DNA from: a virus
Virus record (IMG/VR): IMGVR_UViG_3300005253_001115
Coordinates: 62,001-126,000 of that record
Length of the DNA stretch: 64,000 nucleotides
Direction: 5' to 3' (one strand)
A program made the position numbers and the translations under genes. This document shows, piece by piece, positions 2,536-62,649 of the stretch (the first letter of the stretch is position 1; each line of letters begins with the position of its first letter). The notes under the pieces were generated by a model. It was not told where the DNA came from, made no database searches, and saw nothing but the letters and a program-made list of their open reading frames with translations.

Positions 2536-9004
<6,469 letters not shown>

Positions 9005-36513: not shown

Positions 36514-37302
36514 ATGGTTTACGGTAGGATCTACAAAGCTGAATTCCCTAATGGGAAGCTGTATGTAGGTCTTACCACCATGCGTTTGAAGATCCGGGTA
36601 GACTGTCACATGGGTTCTTCTCGTTCCCAGAAGCATAGAGGATGTGTAGCTTTTAACAATGCCATCCGAAAGCATGGGAAACCCGTCTTCACGGAACTTT
36701 GCACAGCGGACTCTAAGGAAGAATTGGACGCAGCGGAAGTACATTGGATTGCTAAATTGGGAACTATGGTTCCGGCTGGTTACAACATCAAAGAAGGTGG
36801 CGGTAACGGTAAGCACTCTGGAGAAACTAAGCGGAAGATGAGTAAGACCCGTGCAGGCATGAAAATGCCTCCCAGAACGCCGGAACAGTGCCTGAACTAT
36901 CGAAGGCTTGGTGAGCAGAACGCTAATTTCGGGAACCCTCGCAGTGCTGAGACACGCCAAAAAATAGGCGACGCACAGCGGGGCAATAAGAATCACCGAT
37001 TCGGAGCCAAGTGGGACGAAGAGCACTTGGTTATGTTTAGTGAAAGGCAACTAGGGGAAAAGAATCATTTTCACGGCCAGAAGCACACTGCTTCCGCTAA
37101 AGACAAGATGTCTGCGAAAAAGAGAAAATTCTCCAAAGAAGATGTAATTGAGATCTTACGACGCTCGGGGGAAGGCGAAACTCAAAAAAGTATCGCAAAA
37201 TCCTATAGTGTGAGCCCGACAACAATTAGTAGAGCTATCAACGGAAAACGCCGTTGCTACTCTAACCAAGGAGCAATAATGCCTAACCCTTCGCCTCAGT
37301 AA
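36514..37302 (+). CDS. GIY-YIG homing endonuclease overlapping tail tube exon 1 (262 aa)
   Basis: GIY-YIG nuclease domain (residues 1-95: GRIYKA, KLYVGLT, LDAAEVHWIAKL with the catalytic Glu, YNIKEGGGNG). It is followed by NUMOD3-type repeats (HSGETKRKMSK, SAETRQKIGDAQRG, HTASAKDKMSAKK) and a C-terminal HTH (TQKSIAKSYSVSPTTISRAI). The domain set is complete and no damage is seen. The frame continues through the tail tube start (MPNPSP) and ends at a TAA inside the group I intron. In spliced RNA that stop is removed and this gene would be open into the tube gene. It is a free-standing endonuclease beside an ORF-less intron, the arrangement known from collaborative homing, and probably cuts intronless tube alleles. 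Confidence 0.9.
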   Translation: MVYGRIYKAEFPNGKLYVGLTTMRLKIRVDCHMGSSRSQKHRGCVAFNNAIRKHGKPVFTELCTADSKEELDAAEVHWIAKLGTMVPAGYNIKEGGGNGKHSGETKRKMSKTRAGMKMPPRTPEQCLNYRRLGEQNANFGNPRSAETRQKIGDAQRGNKNHRFGAKWDEEHLVMFSERQLGEKNHFHGQKHTASAKDKMSAKKRKFSKEDVIEILRRSGEGETQKSIAKSYSVSPTTISRAINGKRRCYSNQGAIMPNPSPQ

Positions 37303-38096
37303 GGGGCCTTCGAGGAGTAATCCTCGTCGCAAATTCGGTGAATTCGGGGGAACCCCAAACAAGTAAAGTTGTGGGCAATCCCGAGCGAAGCCTAGAAGGA
37401 AACTTCTAGGAACGTGTAACGACTAGACCAGAGCCTAAAGCTTTAGCCACGGCAGTAAGGGTCACTCGGTTGGAGCAATCCTTCAGAGAAGCGCCGGACA
37501 TCCTAGCGGATGATGATATAGTCTGGTCCCTAGTGAAAGTTAGGGAGGTTGGCAGAAATGACCAGCCCTTACCTCGGTAAGTAACAAAACCGTTTGCAAC
37601 CAATGCTTTTGACGTTACGGTGCAGCCGCTCGAACAGGGCGCTGCTGGAGCGCCTACGACGAAGACGTACCACGGTATGTCCATTGTCGTTGGAGGCAAC
37701 ATCGTTGGACGTATCCAGTCATGGCAGCCCAACGCTTACACCCGTGAGGGTGCCCATGTTCGTGAGCTTTCTCACGTAACCTGGGGTCGTCCGATCGACT
37801 ACGTTCCGGGTCAGGCTACTGGCTATACCGTTAGCTTCACTCGCGTGGAAGTTTGGAATCAGGAGCTTGAGCTTACGCTAGGTTTCGGATCGGTCTTTGA
37901 TGACCTCATGGACCAGACTCGCCCGTGGGTTACCCAGGAATATCTCTTCCGTGGTAACGAGCTAAACAAGCTCTGGCAGTACAGCGGTTGCTGGTTCCAG
38001 ACCAAGAACAACAACAACTGGGAGTCAGGCGGCGACGCGATCGTTACGGTCGAGTGTGAGCTGGCTTACGTCTCCCGAGTAAGAGTGGCCGGATAA
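37279..38096 (+). CDS. tail tube protein, split by a group I intron (173 aa after splicing)
   Basis: Exon 1 is 37,279-37,296 (MPNPSP, with AAGGAG 5 nt before the ATG); exon 2 is 37,593-38,096. Joined, the protein starts MPNPSPFATNAFDVTVQP and continues through a beta-rich core (MSIVVGGNIVGRIQSWQP, RELSHVTWGRPIDYVPGQ) to VECELAYVSRVRVAG. Size, fold pattern and position after the sheath fit the myovirus tube protein that forms the DNA channel. Without splicing, translation would stop after seven codons at the TAA in the intron. The stop codon overlaps the next ATG (TAATG). Confidence 0.85.
37297..37592 (+). ncRNA. group I intron (296 nt, no ORF) in the tail tube gene
   Basis: The boundaries follow from pairing. 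Exon GCCU (37,293-37,296) pairs with GGGC (37,304-37,307) as P1, with U.G at the splice site. The adjoining GUAAG (37,299-37,303) pairs with the 3' exon UUUGC as P10. P2 is CGAGGA-GUAA-UCCUCG. P7 is GACUA (37,421-37,425) with UAGUC (37,519-37,523) in the typical contexts aacgacua and gauauagucu. The last base is G. Splicing restores an open tube frame with no stop. It should be self-splicing; exact ends remain a prediction. The TAA at 37,300 would stop ribosomes before the intron core. Confidence 0.85.
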
Positions 38097-56938: not shown

Positions 56939-57144
56939 TACTGATCTGTTAGAACCCCATCCCTAATATCAAGCACCCCGAGGGCGAAAGCAGCGATAAC
57001 AGACTTCACAGCACGTTCCAGAGCATTTGCGCTAGAATAGGCTTCGGCGCTATCAGCAATGATCCTGCCGTTTGTGGAAATCAACCGCCAGCGGAAACCG
57101 TCTCTGCTTTTGTACTGTTCGAGTCTAGCTTTTCGTGCTGCCAT
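56938..57144 (-). CDS. YegP/DUF1508-like small protein (68 aa)
   Basis: The repeat unit of the UPF0339 (YegP) family is visible: YKSRDGFRWRLISTNGRIIA, followed by SAEAYSSANALERAVKSVI. Members are tiny beta-beta-beta-alpha proteins of unknown role, usually in one or two copies; here there is one. It overlaps the end of thyX by 20 nt. Confidence 0.7.
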   Translation of the reverse strand: MAARKARLEQYKSRDGFRWRLISTNGRIIADSAEAYSSANALERAVKSVIAAFALGVLDIRDGVLTDQ

Positions 57145-58054
57145 TGGGGAATACTCCTAGTATTTCTAGCTTCTCAAGACACTCATCTCGTTCTCGGCAC
57201 TTCTTTAGTCTTTTCCAAGAAGGATCTTGGCACTTCTCGAAACTCTTCCTAAAAGTGCTCGGGCGATTCGTGGTCTGGCGATCCACTCTGGAGTCGAGCA
57301 ACATGCGCTGCACCACGCCAATTTCAAGGCGGGTGAGCTGAATAGCCTCCAGCCGGTAGTCCACGAAGGCTTCCCAGGCGTGGGGAAATAGCTTGGCTAC
57401 GATCTCCTTGCCTATGATCTCCGCGAAATCACGAATTTCCTTCTGGGCATGGGAATCCATGCGCAACCGCAGGAAATGAAAGAGGTTGTGAAGGTCTATC
57501 TTCCAGTACGCCTCGGTGTAATTGGAAAGGGGCAAATCTTTGCGGGCCTGCTCGCGAGCAACACCCATCTCTAGACGCTCCTCGTACATAGCACGAGCTT
57601 GCTGGTGAAATGCTACTTCCTGAGAGGATAGCGTAGCGCCTCCGCCCGTCGCGTCGAAGAACCCGTCCGATCCTTGTCGGTTGGCTTCTGCCTGCATTCT
57701 CCACGCTCCGGGCAGTGTAGTTGCACATTCGTCAATAGCCACAGAGTAACGGGTGGAATACTCGTTGACGCTAGCGGTTCGGTGTCGAATCCACTGCCTC
57801 CAAGTATCCATGGGAACACGGACTCGCAACTTGATCTCTGCCATCTCAAAAGGTGTAGTATGCCAATGTCGCATAAGGTACCGAATGAGTTGCCGTTCAT
57901 CGCTGATGTGGCGAGTCCCTTCTCCATAGGATACCCGGGCTGCCTCGACAATGGAGTAATCTTCCCCCATCCAGTCTACTAGACAGACGCCTCCGCCTGA
58001 GCCTACGTTGAACTGCTTCCACTTTAGGTCGTTTCCTGCCTTCTCGTTACTCAT
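57125..58054 (-). CDS. thyX: flavin-dependent thymidylate synthase ThyX (309 aa)
   Basis: The ThyX signature RHRTASVNEYSTRY is complete (about residues 94-107), with other conserved parts (ARVSYG, HTTPFEMAEIKLRVRVPM, LHNLFHFLRLRMDSHAQKEI). It makes dTMP from dUMP using FAD, NADPH and methylene-tetrahydrofolate. The ATG after GAAGGGACTCAAT is the start. It has a C-terminal extension of about 50 residues (from about 260, KCREREDECLEKLEILGVFP) beyond the usual family length. Its neighbour carries a deoxyribosyltransferase-like domain, also in deoxynucleotide metabolism. Confidence 0.95.
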   Translation of the reverse strand: MSNEKAGNDLKWKQFNVGSGGGVCLVDWMGEDYSIVEAARVSYGEGTRHISDERQLIRYLMRHWHTTPFEMAEIKLRVRVPMDTWRQWIRHRTASVNEYSTRYSVAIDECATTLPGAWRMQAEANRQGSDGFFDATGGGATLSSQEVAFHQQARAMYEERLEMGVAREQARKDLPLSNYTEAYWKIDLHNLFHFLRLRMDSHAQKEIRDFAEIIGKEIVAKLFPHAWEAFVDYRLEAIQLTRLEIGVVQRMLLDSRVDRQTTNRPSTFRKSFEKCQDPSWKRLKKCRERDECLEKLEILGVFPNGSTKS

Positions 58055-58065
58055 ATTGAGTCCCT

Positions 58066-59325
58066 TCAATAGAGATCACCAATAACGGTGTCTCGAACTT
58101 TCTGTGCTTCCTTGATGTCCCGTAAAATGTTGTTAGGATCTTTAGTGTACTCCAGAAGATCCTCGAAGCTATAAAAGATTTCAGAGGTTTCTCCCACAAG
58201 CCACACTGGAATAGATTCCAGCGGAAAATCTGACATCAGATACACCGGGCGTCCTTCTCTAAAGGCTTCCCACGCTTCAGATAACGTCCCAGCACCTAGC
58301 TGAGCTGACCTATCATATAGTACAATGATAGCATCTGACAACTGGATTGCGTGAACATCCTTTCGAAAAAAGGAATTTCTTGCAGTATCCCGGATGATTT
58401 TCATATTCCCCTCAGTAGGAGTCTTCTTTAGATCAGACAGGAGCGTTTGGAGGGGTACATTGCCGGGAGCCTCGGGCTCCAGTTTTACAGGATCGAGACA
58501 AGAAATGTTCTGCTCTGCCAGCCTCTTAGTTATCCAATCCCTCCACCCGCTGCCAAGCTTTTTCTTGAACTCCATGCCCCCTGACAGGTACATTGAAAAT
58601 CCGGTTGCAGGTCGAATCTTGTACCGCATAGCTACAGGCACATGTGGGCGTATCAAGCCAACCAACTTGTTCATATTTTCTTTGTTAAACAGTAGTTGCT
58701 TGTATTCTCCGGCTTTTCCTATCTTAGCGTCCAGTCCCCATCGTTCTGAGAAGTATTTTACCATAATCTCATGCTCCTCTTCAGAAAAGCAATGAGTGGA
58801 TAGCCTTGCCTGTTTGCCACTAGGAAAGACTTGACCGTCGTCCATGAACCACACGGCCAAAGACAGTTCGTTTAGCTTGTCCAGTATGTCCCTATTGATA
58901 GTTTTCTTGCCACCAGCGTAGTATTCGGCTCTAATCTGAAGACCAAACGGGTGAGCACAAGACCGTATTCTTCGACATGTTCGGGTGTTTCGGATCTCTC
59001 CAAAGTAAGGTTGCAGGTTCTTGAAAAGCCACAACAGATACCCGAACTGCTTGTGTCCGTGCTGTATGTCAAATTCCCCAGAAGGGCCAAGGTAGGCATC
59101 ACCCATAAGCGAACCCCTGAGGATGTCTTCTTGCCTCTTCGACACCTTAATCAGAACTTGGTTTCTCTCTATAACGCTAATAGCGTTGATAGAAAACTTT
59201 TTTCGAGCCTTGTAAACGGCTTGCTTTGTGCAGGACAACTTTTCGGATATTTCTCTGTCTGTCATGCCCCTGTCTAGGTACAGGAACCGCAGCTCATTCT
59301 CGAATAGTTTTGTTTTGCTTGACAT
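58066..59325 (-). CDS. LAGLIDADG endonuclease fused to a nucleoside deoxyribosyltransferase-like domain (419 aa)
   Basis: Start at the ATG behind AAAGGAAAAAGC. Residues 10-45 are an HTH (MTDREISEKLSCTKQAVYKA). Residues about 60-237 are a two-motif LAGLIDADG nuclease (ILRGSLMGDAYLGPSG and LAVWFMDDGQ, ending VPVAMRYKIR). From residue 245 a complete deoxyribosyltransferase-type fold begins: MYLSGGMEF, SGWRDWITKRL, LSDAIIVLYDRSAQLGAGTL, EAWEAFREGRPVYLMSDFP. There is no ribosome site before MYLSGG and no intein splice residues, so it reads as one fused protein. Either the endonuclease invaded the 5' end of the metabolic gene, or its stop was lost. Both halves look intact. Confidence 0.85.
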   Translation of the reverse strand: MSSKTKLFENELRFLYLDRGMTDREISEKLSCTKQAVYKARKKFSINAISVIERNQVLIKVSKRQEDILRGSLMGDAYLGPSGEFDIQHGHKQFGYLLWLFKNLQPYFGEIRNTRTCRRIRSCAHPFGLQIRAEYYAGGKKTINRDILDKLNELSLAVWFMDDGQVFPSGKQARLSTHCFSEEEHEIMVKYFSERWGLDAKIGKAGEYKQLLFNKENMNKLVGLIRPHVPVAMRYKIRPATGFSMYLSGGMEFKKKLGSGWRDWITKRLAEQNISCLDPVKLEPEAPGNVPLQTLLSDLKKTPTEGNMKIIRDTARNSFFRKDVHAIQLSDAIIVLYDRSAQLGAGTLSEAWEAFREGRPVYLMSDFPLESIPVWLVGETSEIFYSFEDLLEYTKDPNNILRDIKEAQKVRDTVIGDLY

Positions 59326-59614
59326 GCTTTTTCCTTTTCGTCTCAAACGTCCAGGCATTGCACAAGAAAAAGAGCAAGTATGCACCCGCCTCTTCCCAGT
59401 AACCTGCAATAGCGAAGAACAACATCAACGCGCCGCAAACGCAGAGTCCCATGAAGGAAGAGATGACCCAAAACCTATGCATGCCCTCTTTAGAGCCGCA
59501 CAGGGTTAGCATCATGCCGCCTCCAACGTGCGCGCTATAAACACAGAGTCCTATGAGGGAAGAGATGACCCAAAACCTACGCACTCCTTCTTTTGGGCCG
59601 CGTGGGGTTATCAT
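59294..59614 (-). CDS. small membrane protein with internal tandem duplication (106 aa)
   Basis: The ATG overlaps the polymerase stop (ATGA). The first half contains GPKEGVRRFWVISSLIGLCV and the second GSKEGMHRFWVISSFMGLCV, a duplication of about 33 residues; each copy has one hydrophobic helix, and a third helix follows (YLLFFLCNAWTF). The basic tail (KRKKHVKQNK) is probably cytoplasmic. The second ATG pair (MMLTLCG) may be the ancestral start. Function unknown. Confidence 0.65.
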   Translation of the reverse strand: MITPRGPKEGVRRFWVISSLIGLCVYSAHVGGGMMLTLCGSKEGMHRFWVISSFMGLCVCGALMLFFAIAGYWEEAGAYLLFFLCNAWTFETKRKKHVKQNKTIRE

Positions 59615-59640
59615 GCTGCTTCCAATGTACGTGCCGTCTC
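59440..59640 (-). repeat. imperfect tandem duplication of about 102 bp
   Basis: Two adjacent copies (about 59,440-59,538 and 59,540-59,640) share runs such as ggaagagatgacccaaaacc. Each copy spans the end of the polymerase gene (the bases coding for LEAA-stop) plus the start of the membrane protein gene. The copies are offset by 99-102 bp and stay in frame. Confidence 0.8.
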
Positions 59641-62600
59641 GTTTTTTCGTAGGTGGTTCATAAGGTAGTCGAGATGAAGCTGTGTGCCATCCCAGGCGTC
59701 TATCTCGCCCCACTTCAGGCCAAATTCAAAGTCAATCTCCAAAGGAATGTTGAATTCTACATCCCAGATATCAACCATACGTTCCATCAGTTTGTTGGTG
59801 AACCAGGGCTTTAGCTCTCTCAGCGCTTCCGGTACATCCTCGATAGGAACTTGAATCACTAGAGAGTCGTGAACCACGTCCTGTAGCTGCCAGCATTCCT
59901 TGGTGGGATGCGGGTGCCATTTTCCTTCTTCGATCAGCCAGTCACAGAACATAGCCGCTCCCAGGAAGGCACCGTCAGACGAAATTCCCTGGATCGGTGC
60001 GTTACGGGCGATACGTTTGGCTCTCGCAATCTCTCCGTCATCGCCGTAACCAAGTTGGAATGTCAACAAGCGGCGTCTACGTCCGATGGGGCTCTCTACA
60101 TATCCGTCCTTTTCTCCCTTTTTCTCGATATCATACATCCACTGTTCAGCGCCGGGGAACTGTGCAAAGAAATCGTCAATTCGTCCCTGAACGTCAGCGA
60201 TATTCTCAATATGTAGCTGGGCAGCAATGGCCTTGACACCACGGCCGAACATGGTACCGAACACGATGGACTTCGTATCGGTACGCTGACTCTTCGTTAC
60301 CTGTGTGATAGGAACCTTGTACATCTGGCTAGCAGTAGACTTGTGGATATCACCAGCGATCCCAGCGAAAATCTTGGCCTGACACAATGCACGGAACACC
60401 ATATCTGTGTGTAGCATCTTCCAGGCGATCTTCATGACCTTAGTCGCGTGCTTCCCCCTCAGCATTTCCAAGCTGTTTGGTCCCGTCTTCTTCTTGTAAT
60501 TGAAGAGACCCTTGTCGTCTTCGTCTTCCGGGTTGAGCATATCAGAGCCCGCAGCCAGAATCTCGTAGCGCATCTTGGGCTTGCGCTTCAAGAAGTCCGC
60601 AGCAGCCACAGAGTAGTTGTCCCGGGCCTTTTTGCCGTCAAGAAACGCCTTTGCGAGGCTCGGGCACTTAGACAGGATTCCCCACCACCGAACCTCAGAG
60701 GTCATGAAGTCAAGCTGAATGAGAGCACACCCTGGCTCAGCCGCGTACATGTTCTTGATCTCTGTCTTGGCCCAGTTGTCTGCGCGGGGCACCTGCTGAA
60801 GATTGGGGTCCGTACAAGACGACCGGCCCGTATCTGTAGTAGTCACCCAGAAGCTAGGCCGCACACGGCTGTCGATCGCACCTTCCTGCCCGTTCTTCGG
60901 GTCCAGGAACTCGTAGATCGACTTAACGTAAGAGGTCTTGAGCTTCTTGAGGCCAGAATGCTCGTGCAAACGTTCTACTTCTGGTACGTGCATGTAGCGC
61001 TCTTGGAAAGCCTTATCGAGCTTACCTACGGGAGTCAGCTTGACTTCCTGACCAGAACCCGCCTCTACGATGGGGACACGAGTGCTCTTACCGTAGTCGA
61101 GAGGAGCAAGATCCAGCACATCTAGTAGGAGGCATTGCTTGTGCTCCGTCTTATCAATATCGAACATCCAGGCATCAGCGCCGCCACCAAATGTAGGCTT
61201 CATCCTGCCGCCGAGCTTTTTCCTCAGTAGTCGCGTGTTCGCTTCTTTTGCCGGGGCGCTGTCTTTCCACTCTTCGGTAAGCTCGTTCATGCGCTTCACT
61301 ATCGGACTGGTCTTTGGATTCTTGAGTTCCCGCAACTGATCCATGTCTACCCAAAATCCGTTGGAGCCCATGACGCCAATCATGCGATTGACCGGCTCGA
61401 ACCAGTGCTCGACCAGTTTGAGGAGCTTTTGCTTATAGTCCTCCTTCTCAGCTCGCTCCAGAATGAACCAGAACAGCCTCCAAGTGTAGACAGCATCGCT
61501 AGCACCATACTTGGCAAGGCGCTCGATGTCGATCTCCAGCAGCTTACCTTGCTTCTTGAGATACTCAATTTCCGAATCCTCGTACTTAACGGCGTGCAGG
61601 TAGTCTCGCAACAAGGAATCCAAGGAGTACGGCTTCTCGATGCCGGATTTACCACGATTCTCATCCTGACAGTACGCCATCATGCCGGTATCCAGCAGGG
61701 GTCGATTGAACTTACAGATACCTAGACCGAAGTTCATAATCATTCGGAAATCGAACGCCACATTGTGGAAGACCCAGTAGCGGAACTTCGGGTTCGGCTC
61801 TGTGAACAGTCGTGTCAGGGCAGCGTTCAACCGCTTCATGTCGTCCGGCCACCAGCCGTGACCTGGGTGCATGTAGGGAATTACTGTGCCTGTAATGCCG
61901 TCCTCGCAGAACTGGAAAGTTCCAAGCACATTCCCGTAGCACTTGTTGAGGTTCTTGGTTTCCGTATCGCAGGCTATGAGTTTGATCTTGGGATCGGTCA
62001 GAAGGTGCTCAACGTACTCTTCAACGTCCTCGATCTTCGTAAGGAGACGCCATTTCGAGGGCTTAGACCACTTATCTGCCTTCTTCTGAGCATCTGAGGT
62101 GCCAAGAGCCAGTTGAATGTCGATTTTCCACTGGTCAAAGAAGCTCTGACGCTTCAAAATGTAAGCGGGATCGTGGATGCTAAAGATCTTACCCAATACT
62201 GGGTGGTCATAATGCTGGCCACGCGCCTTGGCTATGTTAGGGGTCTCAGGGCACAGAGACTTTAGGACGCTCCCTAGGACAACTATCTTGGTGGGCTTCA
62301 GGGTGTCGATGTCCGCCTTTAGGTGCGTCAGACACTCCTCAATGACTTCAGGAGCCAAAGCTGCTCCGGTTCCGGCTAGCTCATCCCAGTTACGAACAAG
62401 CTCCGTGTAGGCCACTGAGACACCTCTGACGTTGAGGCGGCGCACAGTCTTTCGTAGGAGATCACCAGCCCTACCAGCAAATGGCAGGCCGCTCTCAGAC
62501 TCAGCTCGGCCAGGACCTTCGCCCACGAAGAGAACGGTCTCGTCGGGGTTAGACTTGCCCTTGCGGAACTGTGTGGGAATAAGGGAGCAATCTGCGTATG

Positions 62601-62649
62601 CAGAGCATTCCTTTCGCTCGCATGTGAAGTTCAGAATTCCTGAATCCAT
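59611..62649 (-). CDS. family A DNA polymerase with N-terminal uracil-DNA-glycosylase-like domain (1012 aa)
   Basis: Residues 1-190: UDG family 4/5-like domain (Cys-rich start, VLFVGEGPGRAESESGLPFA, end motif IHDPAYILKR). Residues 215-400: 3'-5' exonuclease (ACDTETKNL, YWVFHNVAFDFRMIMNFG, YGASDAVYTWRL). Residues 410-1012: polymerase with motif A LIQLDFMTSEVRWWGIL (Asp, Glu, Arg kept), motif B RTDTKSIVFGTMFGRG (Phe where most have Tyr) and motif C VVHDSLVI (Ser in place of the usual Glu). There is no 5'-3' exonuclease. It is the phage replicative polymerase. UDG-like fusions to family A polymerases are, as far as I recall, reported in SPO1-like phages. It has no Shine-Dalgarno; CTAAAG lies 7 nt before the ATG. 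Confidence 0.93.
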   Translation of the reverse strand: MDSGILNFTCERKECSAYADCSLIPTQFRKGKSNPDETVLFVGEGPGRAESESGLPFAGRAGDLLRKTVRRLNVRGVSVAYTELVRNWDELAGTGAALAPEVIEECLTHLKADIDTLKPTKIVVLGSVLKSLCPETPNIAKARGQHYDHPVLGKIFSIHDPAYILKRQSFFDQWKIDIQLALGTSDAQKKADKWSKPSKWRLLTKIEDVEEYVEHLLTDPKIKLIACDTETKNLNKCYGNVLGTFQFCEDGITGTVIPYMHPGHGWWPDDMKRLNAALTRLFTEPNPKFRYWVFHNVAFDFRMIMNFGLGICKFNRPLLDTGMMAYCQDENRGKSGIEKPYSLDSLLRDYLHAVKYEDSEIEYLKKQGKLLEIDIERLAKYGASDAVYTWRLFWFILERAEKEDYKQKLLKLVEHWFEPVNRMIGVMGSNGFWVDMDQLRELKNPKTSPIVKRMNELTEEWKDSAPAKEANTRLLRKKLGGRMKPTFGGGADAWMFDIDKTEHKQCLLLDVLDLAPLDYGKSTRVPIVEAGSGQEVKLTPVGKLDKAFQERYMHVPEVERLHEHSGLKKLKTSYVKSIYEFLDPKNGQEGAIDSRVRPSFWVTTTDTGRSSCTDPNLQQVPRADNWAKTEIKNMYAAEPGCALIQLDFMTSEVRWWGILSKCPSLAKAFLDGKKARDNYSVAAADFLKRKPKMRYEILAAGSDMLNPEDEDDKGLFNYKKKTGPNSLEMLRGKHATKVMKIAWKMLHTDMVFRALCQAKIFAGIAGDIHKSTASQMYKVPITQVTKSQRTDTKSIVFGTMFGRGVKAIAAQLHIENIADVQGRIDDFFAQFPGAEQWMYDIEKKGEKDGYVESPIGRRRRLLTFQLGYGDDGEIARAKRIARNAPIQGISSDGAFLGAAMFCDWLIEEGKWHPHPTKECWQLQDVVHDSLVIQVPIEDVPEALRELKPWFTNKLMERMVDIWDVEFNIPLEIDFEFGLKWGEIDAWDGTQLHLDYLMNHLRKNETARTLEAA

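Follow-up and report, generated by a model that had tools for sequence, protein, structure and literature searches.

The usual view is that homing endonucleases depend on introns, inteins or the gaps between genes in order to avoid breaking their targets. The closest described systems are those in which homing into coding genes proceeds without splicing. Fungal mitochondrial mORF gene hybrids, with examples in atp6 of Allomyces and in atp6, atp9, cox2 and nad3 of Glomus, arise by such splice-free homing at the 3′ end of a gene and leave duplicated pieces of the host gene behind (PMC3630166). In yeast, each WHO element is a gene of its own that takes the place of the 3′ end of FBA1, old fragments of which remain (PMC7282813). 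In phages, free-standing homing endonucleases are exemplified by Seg and Mob of T4 and by mobE, which lies in nrdA of Aeh1 and leaves that gene split (PMC2988022).

The gene considered here lies in the window, by which we mean the whole analysed stretch of 64,000 nucleotides of viral DNA (positions 62,001 to 126,000 of IMG/VR record IMGVR_UViG_3300005253_001115). At 58066..59325, on the minus strand, as are all parts of this gene and the adjoining thyX, a single uninterrupted ORF of 419 codons, with an ATG start and no internal stop, joins a LAGLIDADG endonuclease to a deoxyribosyltransferase-like enzyme (419 aa; ORF, domain search and AlphaFold model). A preliminary description of this DNA, made from its letters alone, had the endonuclease running without a stop into a deoxyribosyltransferase-type domain and thyX next to it, and both points stand: thyX is directly downstream (57125..58069 from a TTG at 58069 or, more likely, ..58054 from an ATG; PF02511, 1e-48). 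On the other side of the fusion, 59611-62649 encodes a 1012-aa protein in which a family A DNA polymerase is combined with a 3′-5′ exonuclease and, at the N terminus, a domain of the uracil-DNA-glycosylase superfamily. We consider it probable that a mobile LAGLIDADG homing endonuclease has inserted here in frame at the 5′ end of the enzyme gene, splice-free, giving one bifunctional protein.

The mORF hybrids resemble this gene in that a homing endonuclease ORF occupies a protein-coding gene with neither an intron nor an intein, in phase in the case of atp6, and carries a foreign piece of the host gene (PMC3630166). However, mORFs insert at the 3′ end and bring a replacement C terminus while the old one stays (PMC3630166), whereas the phage endonuclease lies at the 5′ end and the whole enzyme is kept; furthermore, the mORF hybrids are mitochondrial and the present fusion belongs to a phage. 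No duplicated terminus of the host gene was found to have been left behind; one enzyme copy was found in the 266.6-kb record, and no displaced copy was seen near the fusion in either of the two further contigs that encode it. WHO shares with the phage gene, on the reading proposed here, splice-free homing into the gene of a metabolic enzyme and the exchange of host-gene sequence, but is a separate gene (PMC7282813), whereas the phage nuclease would form the N-terminal part of the enzyme polypeptide. Seg, Mob and mobE are likewise phage endonucleases that invade next to or into nucleotide-metabolism genes, with co-conversion of the flanks; they lie between genes, however, or split a gene into two polypeptides, and none is described in the accessible part of that source as an in-frame N-terminal fusion (PMC2988022). 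The locus differs from known splice-free homing in its N-terminal position, its occurrence in phages and its lack of a duplicated host-gene piece, and a search of the open-access part of the literature found no N-terminal, splice-free, in-frame homing endonuclease fusion in phages.

The endonuclease part, the inserted segment, comprises residues 1-244 (58594..59325). It matches PF03161 (LAGLIDADG_2) over residues 68-221 with 108 bits (E 7e-31; curated cut-off 25), and both profile (1e-13 to 1e-15) and fold relate it to I-SceI and I-WcaI. Two LAGLIDADG motifs are present, each with its catalytic acidic residue and each invariant in the three known fusions: LRGSLMGDAY at residues 69-78 (59092..59121; Asp76), in which the invariant positions are GD-A-Y and which aligns to GLILGDAY of I-SceI, and LSLAVWFMDDG at residues 154-164 (58834..58866; Asp162/163), which aligns to SLAYWFMDDG of I-SceI. 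They are preceded by a helix-turn-helix at residues 9-43 (59197..59301), formed in the model by helices 9-18, 23-29 and 34-43 and detected by HTH_23 at residues 15-44 under its cut-off. The two-motif nuclease with its own HTH proposed earlier is thus confirmed, the HTH by the model helices and a sub-threshold match, and the part is predicted to be an I-SceI-type, two-motif LAGLIDADG_2 protein with putative nuclease activity. The I-SceI and I-WcaI proteins share its fold and both catalytic motifs but are intron-encoded, whereas in the fusion an HTH precedes the nuclease and an enzyme follows it. Viral contigs scanned with the window endonuclease alone gave no match.

The enzyme part spans residues 245-419 (58066..58593; 175 aa). 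Its match to PF05014 (2e-4; 21.7 bits) lies below the curated gathering cut-off of 28.8, and 17 of the 30 members of its family alignment match the same model at E<=0.01. In Foldseek, the enzyme half of the AlphaFold model matched 6evs, 9emx and MilB with target TM values of 0.55-0.71 and probability 1.00, and the fold matches comprise solved 2-deoxyribosyltransferases, MilB and YtoQ; for this work, a mixed alignment with solo endonucleases, which were misaligned onto the enzyme, was set aside for another. For this half, the domain search proposed in the preliminary description falls short at the level of Pfam scores, but the fold matches. Tyr246 (Y2 of the family, in YLSGGM on strand 1) and Glu350 (E106, in GTLSE of the GTxxE motif) are invariant in the 30 members; we take these to be the catalytic residues known from the nucleoside 2-deoxyribosyltransferase family. 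Fold, strand-1 Tyr and GTxxE are as in PF05014 enzymes, but the fusion enzyme scores below their Pfam cut-off. Together with the sub-cut-off match, these features uphold a C-terminal deoxyribosyltransferase-type domain, and the modelled half has the nucleoside deoxyribosyltransferase fold, with a putative deoxyribosyl transfer or hydrolase activity. The family is marked by YLSGGM[ED][YF], with members in phages and in Ignavibacteria and Bacteroidota; NCBIfam has no model for it, a PDB sequence search with the enzyme profile gave no match, and one solo relative (27%) comes from an archaeal virus.

Modelled as a whole, the 419-aa chain gives a confident two-domain structure (mean pLDDT 87.5, pTM 0.75), in which the last endonuclease helix passes directly into strand 1 of the enzyme without a linker. 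None of the best 50 viral proteins in a BFVD fold search is described as having both domains, and a search of phage GenBank returned distant endonucleases only, without the fusion. Among viral contigs and prokaryote genome contigs, however, the phage form of the enzyme occurs in nine further distinct loci. Three loci, the only fused ones known, carry the fusion at exactly the same residue: the window, L012 (IMG/VR 3300036760_000442) and L020 (contig WJJK01000141.1, binned as an Altiarchaeales MAG, yet syntenic with the phages). The fusion is neither an artefact nor a chance product, because two other contigs encode it with the same junction. Seven phage loci (L011, L013 and L015-L019) carry the enzyme alone, which provides the comparison with unfused enzymes that had been called for; L014 is the same as L013 in enzyme and upstream sequence. 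More distant chromosomal relatives from Ignavibacteria and Bacteroidota have no endonuclease in any case inspected, and further scans for fused enzymes returned the same set of loci. Occupied and empty alleles are therefore both present.

How the insert is placed is apparent from the gene starts. Solo genes begin with a Shine-Dalgarno sequence (SD) followed by ATG-Lys-(Phe/Val)-Tyr-Leu-Ser-Gly-Gly-Met, and in all three fusions the junction falls one residue ahead of YLSGGM; the window reads ATGFS|MYLSGG, with the junction Ser244|Met245 at 58591..58596, without SD or linker, and enzyme strand 1 starting at residue 243. Through the GTG start codon, the DNA of L012 is near-identical to that of the solo L018 (GTAAATAACTGGCGAGAAGCGTTCGTAGC..AAGGAGTT..TGTAGTG); the L012 endonuclease follows this codon. 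In the window, GTTTGAGACGAAAAGGA-AAA..ATG matches the DNA upstream of the solo L011 enzyme, and the ribosome-binding site AAAGGA (59332..59337; duplex dG -5.6) agrees with that of L011 in position and sequence; across the starts of the fused genes, dG is -5.6 to -8.5. Since the upstream DNA of fused and solo genes matches up to the start, the fused gene uses the ribosome-binding site and start codon of the enzyme gene, the endonuclease lying between that codon and the first core strand. The preliminary description overlooked both this borrowing and the block exchange of endonuclease plus enzyme described below.

Several comparisons bear on mobility. The window and L011 share ~76% DNA identity across the region, and their enzymes match at 74%. 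Two features break the homology: a small duplication upstream and the endonuclease (~711 bp in the window vs ~21 bp in L011), whose ~711 bp are the only break around the gene start. At 59429-59619, inside a small ORF that looks like a membrane-protein gene and separates polA from the fusion, the window holds two 89-nt copies that are 80% identical and spaced 102 nt, one of which seems missing from L011. Over about 11 kb, the DNA of L012 matches that of L018 at 82-87% identity on either side of a sharp block, which runs from the enzyme start codon to just past its stop, consists of exactly endonuclease plus enzyme vs enzyme and is unalignable by blastn; their enzymes are 53% identical and their neighbouring proteins 86-98%. 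In a tree built from four neighbouring proteins, L012 and L018 group together with 100/100 support, whereas in the enzyme tree their sisterhood is rejected (p-AU 8e-6). One of the two has exchanged the endonuclease/enzyme block. Uptake of the fused gene by L012 would be the simpler account, although the enzyme tree does not reject a grouping of L012, L018 and L019 (p 0.49); the block could likewise have been exchanged by ordinary recombination. L018 has two further ORFs without an L012 counterpart (1743-2459 and 7401-7733), which by eye resemble HNH- and GIY-YIG-type endonuclease insertions.

The three fused enzymes do not form one clade (rejected, p-AU 2e-5), and three changes are placed on the tree. 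Window and L020 are 65% identical in their endonucleases and 52% in their enzymes, a contrast that could partly reflect different rates, and window and L012 show the reverse (52% and 57%). Several gains, or gains together with precise losses, are needed for this distribution, which is unlike host-gene descent, and the element looks mobile. The solo enzyme of L011 carries a 14-15-residue N-terminal extension, (M)MTNQKAERTNERFA, that is not in the other solo phage genes. The last nine bases of the extension, AGATTTGCA, agree with the last nine of the window endonuclease, GGATTTTCA, at 7/9 (window-wide null 0.1%), and the twelve bases after the ATG agree with the endonuclease start at 7/12 (null 1.3%). 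These matches are only suggestive; the extension may be what an in-frame deletion left as a scar when it took out the endonuclease but not the enzyme. The earlier idea that an endonuclease so placed would be protected from loss is thus partly right, but seven related phages are without it, and L011 may have lost it.

The open frame could be read in other ways. The enzyme might be translated separately from the junction codon, the shared frame being that of a polar operon and not of a protein fusion; the ATG of the window and the GTG of L012 at this place would fit, as would AGGGA upstream of the L012 junction (dG -5.6), although that value is equalled by 15% of random internal codons. In L020, however, the codon is CTG, the frame is open through the junction in all three fusions, and all homologues have a hydrophobic residue (M/V/L/F/I) here, within strand 1, which accounts for a chance ATG or GTG. 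For the junction SD of the window and L020 (dG -3.3), 38% of arbitrary start-like codons lying in frame within the genes of the window score as well or better, in keeping with the earlier remark that no SD precedes the second domain. Since the junction SD is no better than many random internal codons and L020 has CTG, separate translation is distinctly unlikely. Removal of the endonuclease before or after translation, by a hidden group I or II intron or a degenerate intein, seems extremely improbable, even though the phage group is rich in self-splicing elements. In the window, a group I intron (RF00028, 76.8 bits, 37279-37545, within 36514-37545) is preceded by an ORF with GIY-YIG, NUMOD3 and HTH domains (36514-37302), and thyX of the nearest relative, L011 (6540-8339), holds an intein with an HNH/NUMOD4 endonuclease, whereas the window thyX has none. 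Rfam, which finds this intron, gave no match at E<=5 in window 57900-59750, where a hidden intron had been named as the finding that would overturn a fusion, and nothing above gathering scores in L012 or L020; an intron was rejected, there being no ribozyme core and, in an insert that is almost entirely coding, no room for one. The domain library that finds the L011 intein detects no Hint domain in the fusion ORF, and the junctions (ATGFS|MYLSGG in the window) are without Cys/Ser/Thr or His-Asn, the preliminary description having likewise seen no Cys/Ser start and no His-Asn end, so an intein was rejected too.

It is also conceivable, but rather unlikely, that the protein has been domesticated, its endonuclease no longer selfish and its DNA-binding part regulating or targeting the enzyme, for example by autoregulation of the operon; I-TevI autoregulates at its own promoter. 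The direct, linkerless join in the model and the retention of the in-frame fusion across divergent phages speak for this, as does a low pN/pS (0.25-0.39 in both halves, with synonymous sites saturated), which is consistent with selection on both halves. On the other hand, presence and absence among close relatives and the block exchange resemble mobility and not a fixed function, and both catalytic Asp motifs, superfluous for pure regulation, are intact. Given that three phages share one junction, that no part of an intron or intein is present and that L020 has no standard start at the domain boundary, an in-frame bifunctional fusion, as first proposed, is supported as the best reading.

For a mobile endonuclease inserted in frame, the following course may be envisaged. 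The endonuclease gene would enter behind the start codon of the enzyme gene, ahead of the first codon of its core, rely on the enzyme's ribosome-binding site and start codon and, having no stop of its own, be translated with it as a single polypeptide. The enzyme would still be made because the insert keeps the frame and lies before strand 1, and would presumably be active when fused; splicing would be unnecessary because the enzyme N terminus tolerates an extra domain. In a mixed infection, the endonuclease presumably cuts the conserved YLSGGM region at the 5′ end of endonuclease-free enzyme genes, and repair from the fused gene would copy it in, with variable co-conversion that sometimes takes in the whole enzyme coding region. 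The endonuclease thus seems to manage without intron, intein or gene gap by serving as the N-terminal part of an enzyme; this position gives it expression, and removal would be possible only through in-frame deletion or allele exchange. Selfish genes would thereby have a further, testable route into coding sequence, along which bifunctional proteins could also arise.

Whether N-terminal fusion is a general way of life, yet to be described, of phage homing endonucleases, which would insert behind the start codon of a host gene and ahead of its first core strand, use its translation signals and be able to carry an entire enzyme as a transmissible unit, is an idea that we entertain tentatively, as something that might well hold. 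If it does, further cases would be found in four other phage contigs (L081, L084, L094 and L096), where LAGLIDADG_2 plus HTH is fused in frame ahead of a DNA methyltransferase, one scan having found no unfused counterparts, and in L090 (3500-5392), where LAGLIDADG_2, with FMGDG as second motif, is fused in frame ahead of a Mom-type DNA-modification domain (PF25680). The genome of the window itself holds, about 243 kb along (L009, 994-1890), a second homing endonuclease of the LAGLIDADG_2 type (298 aa), which has an HTH of its own, is apparently free-standing and lies beside a release-factor-like ORF.
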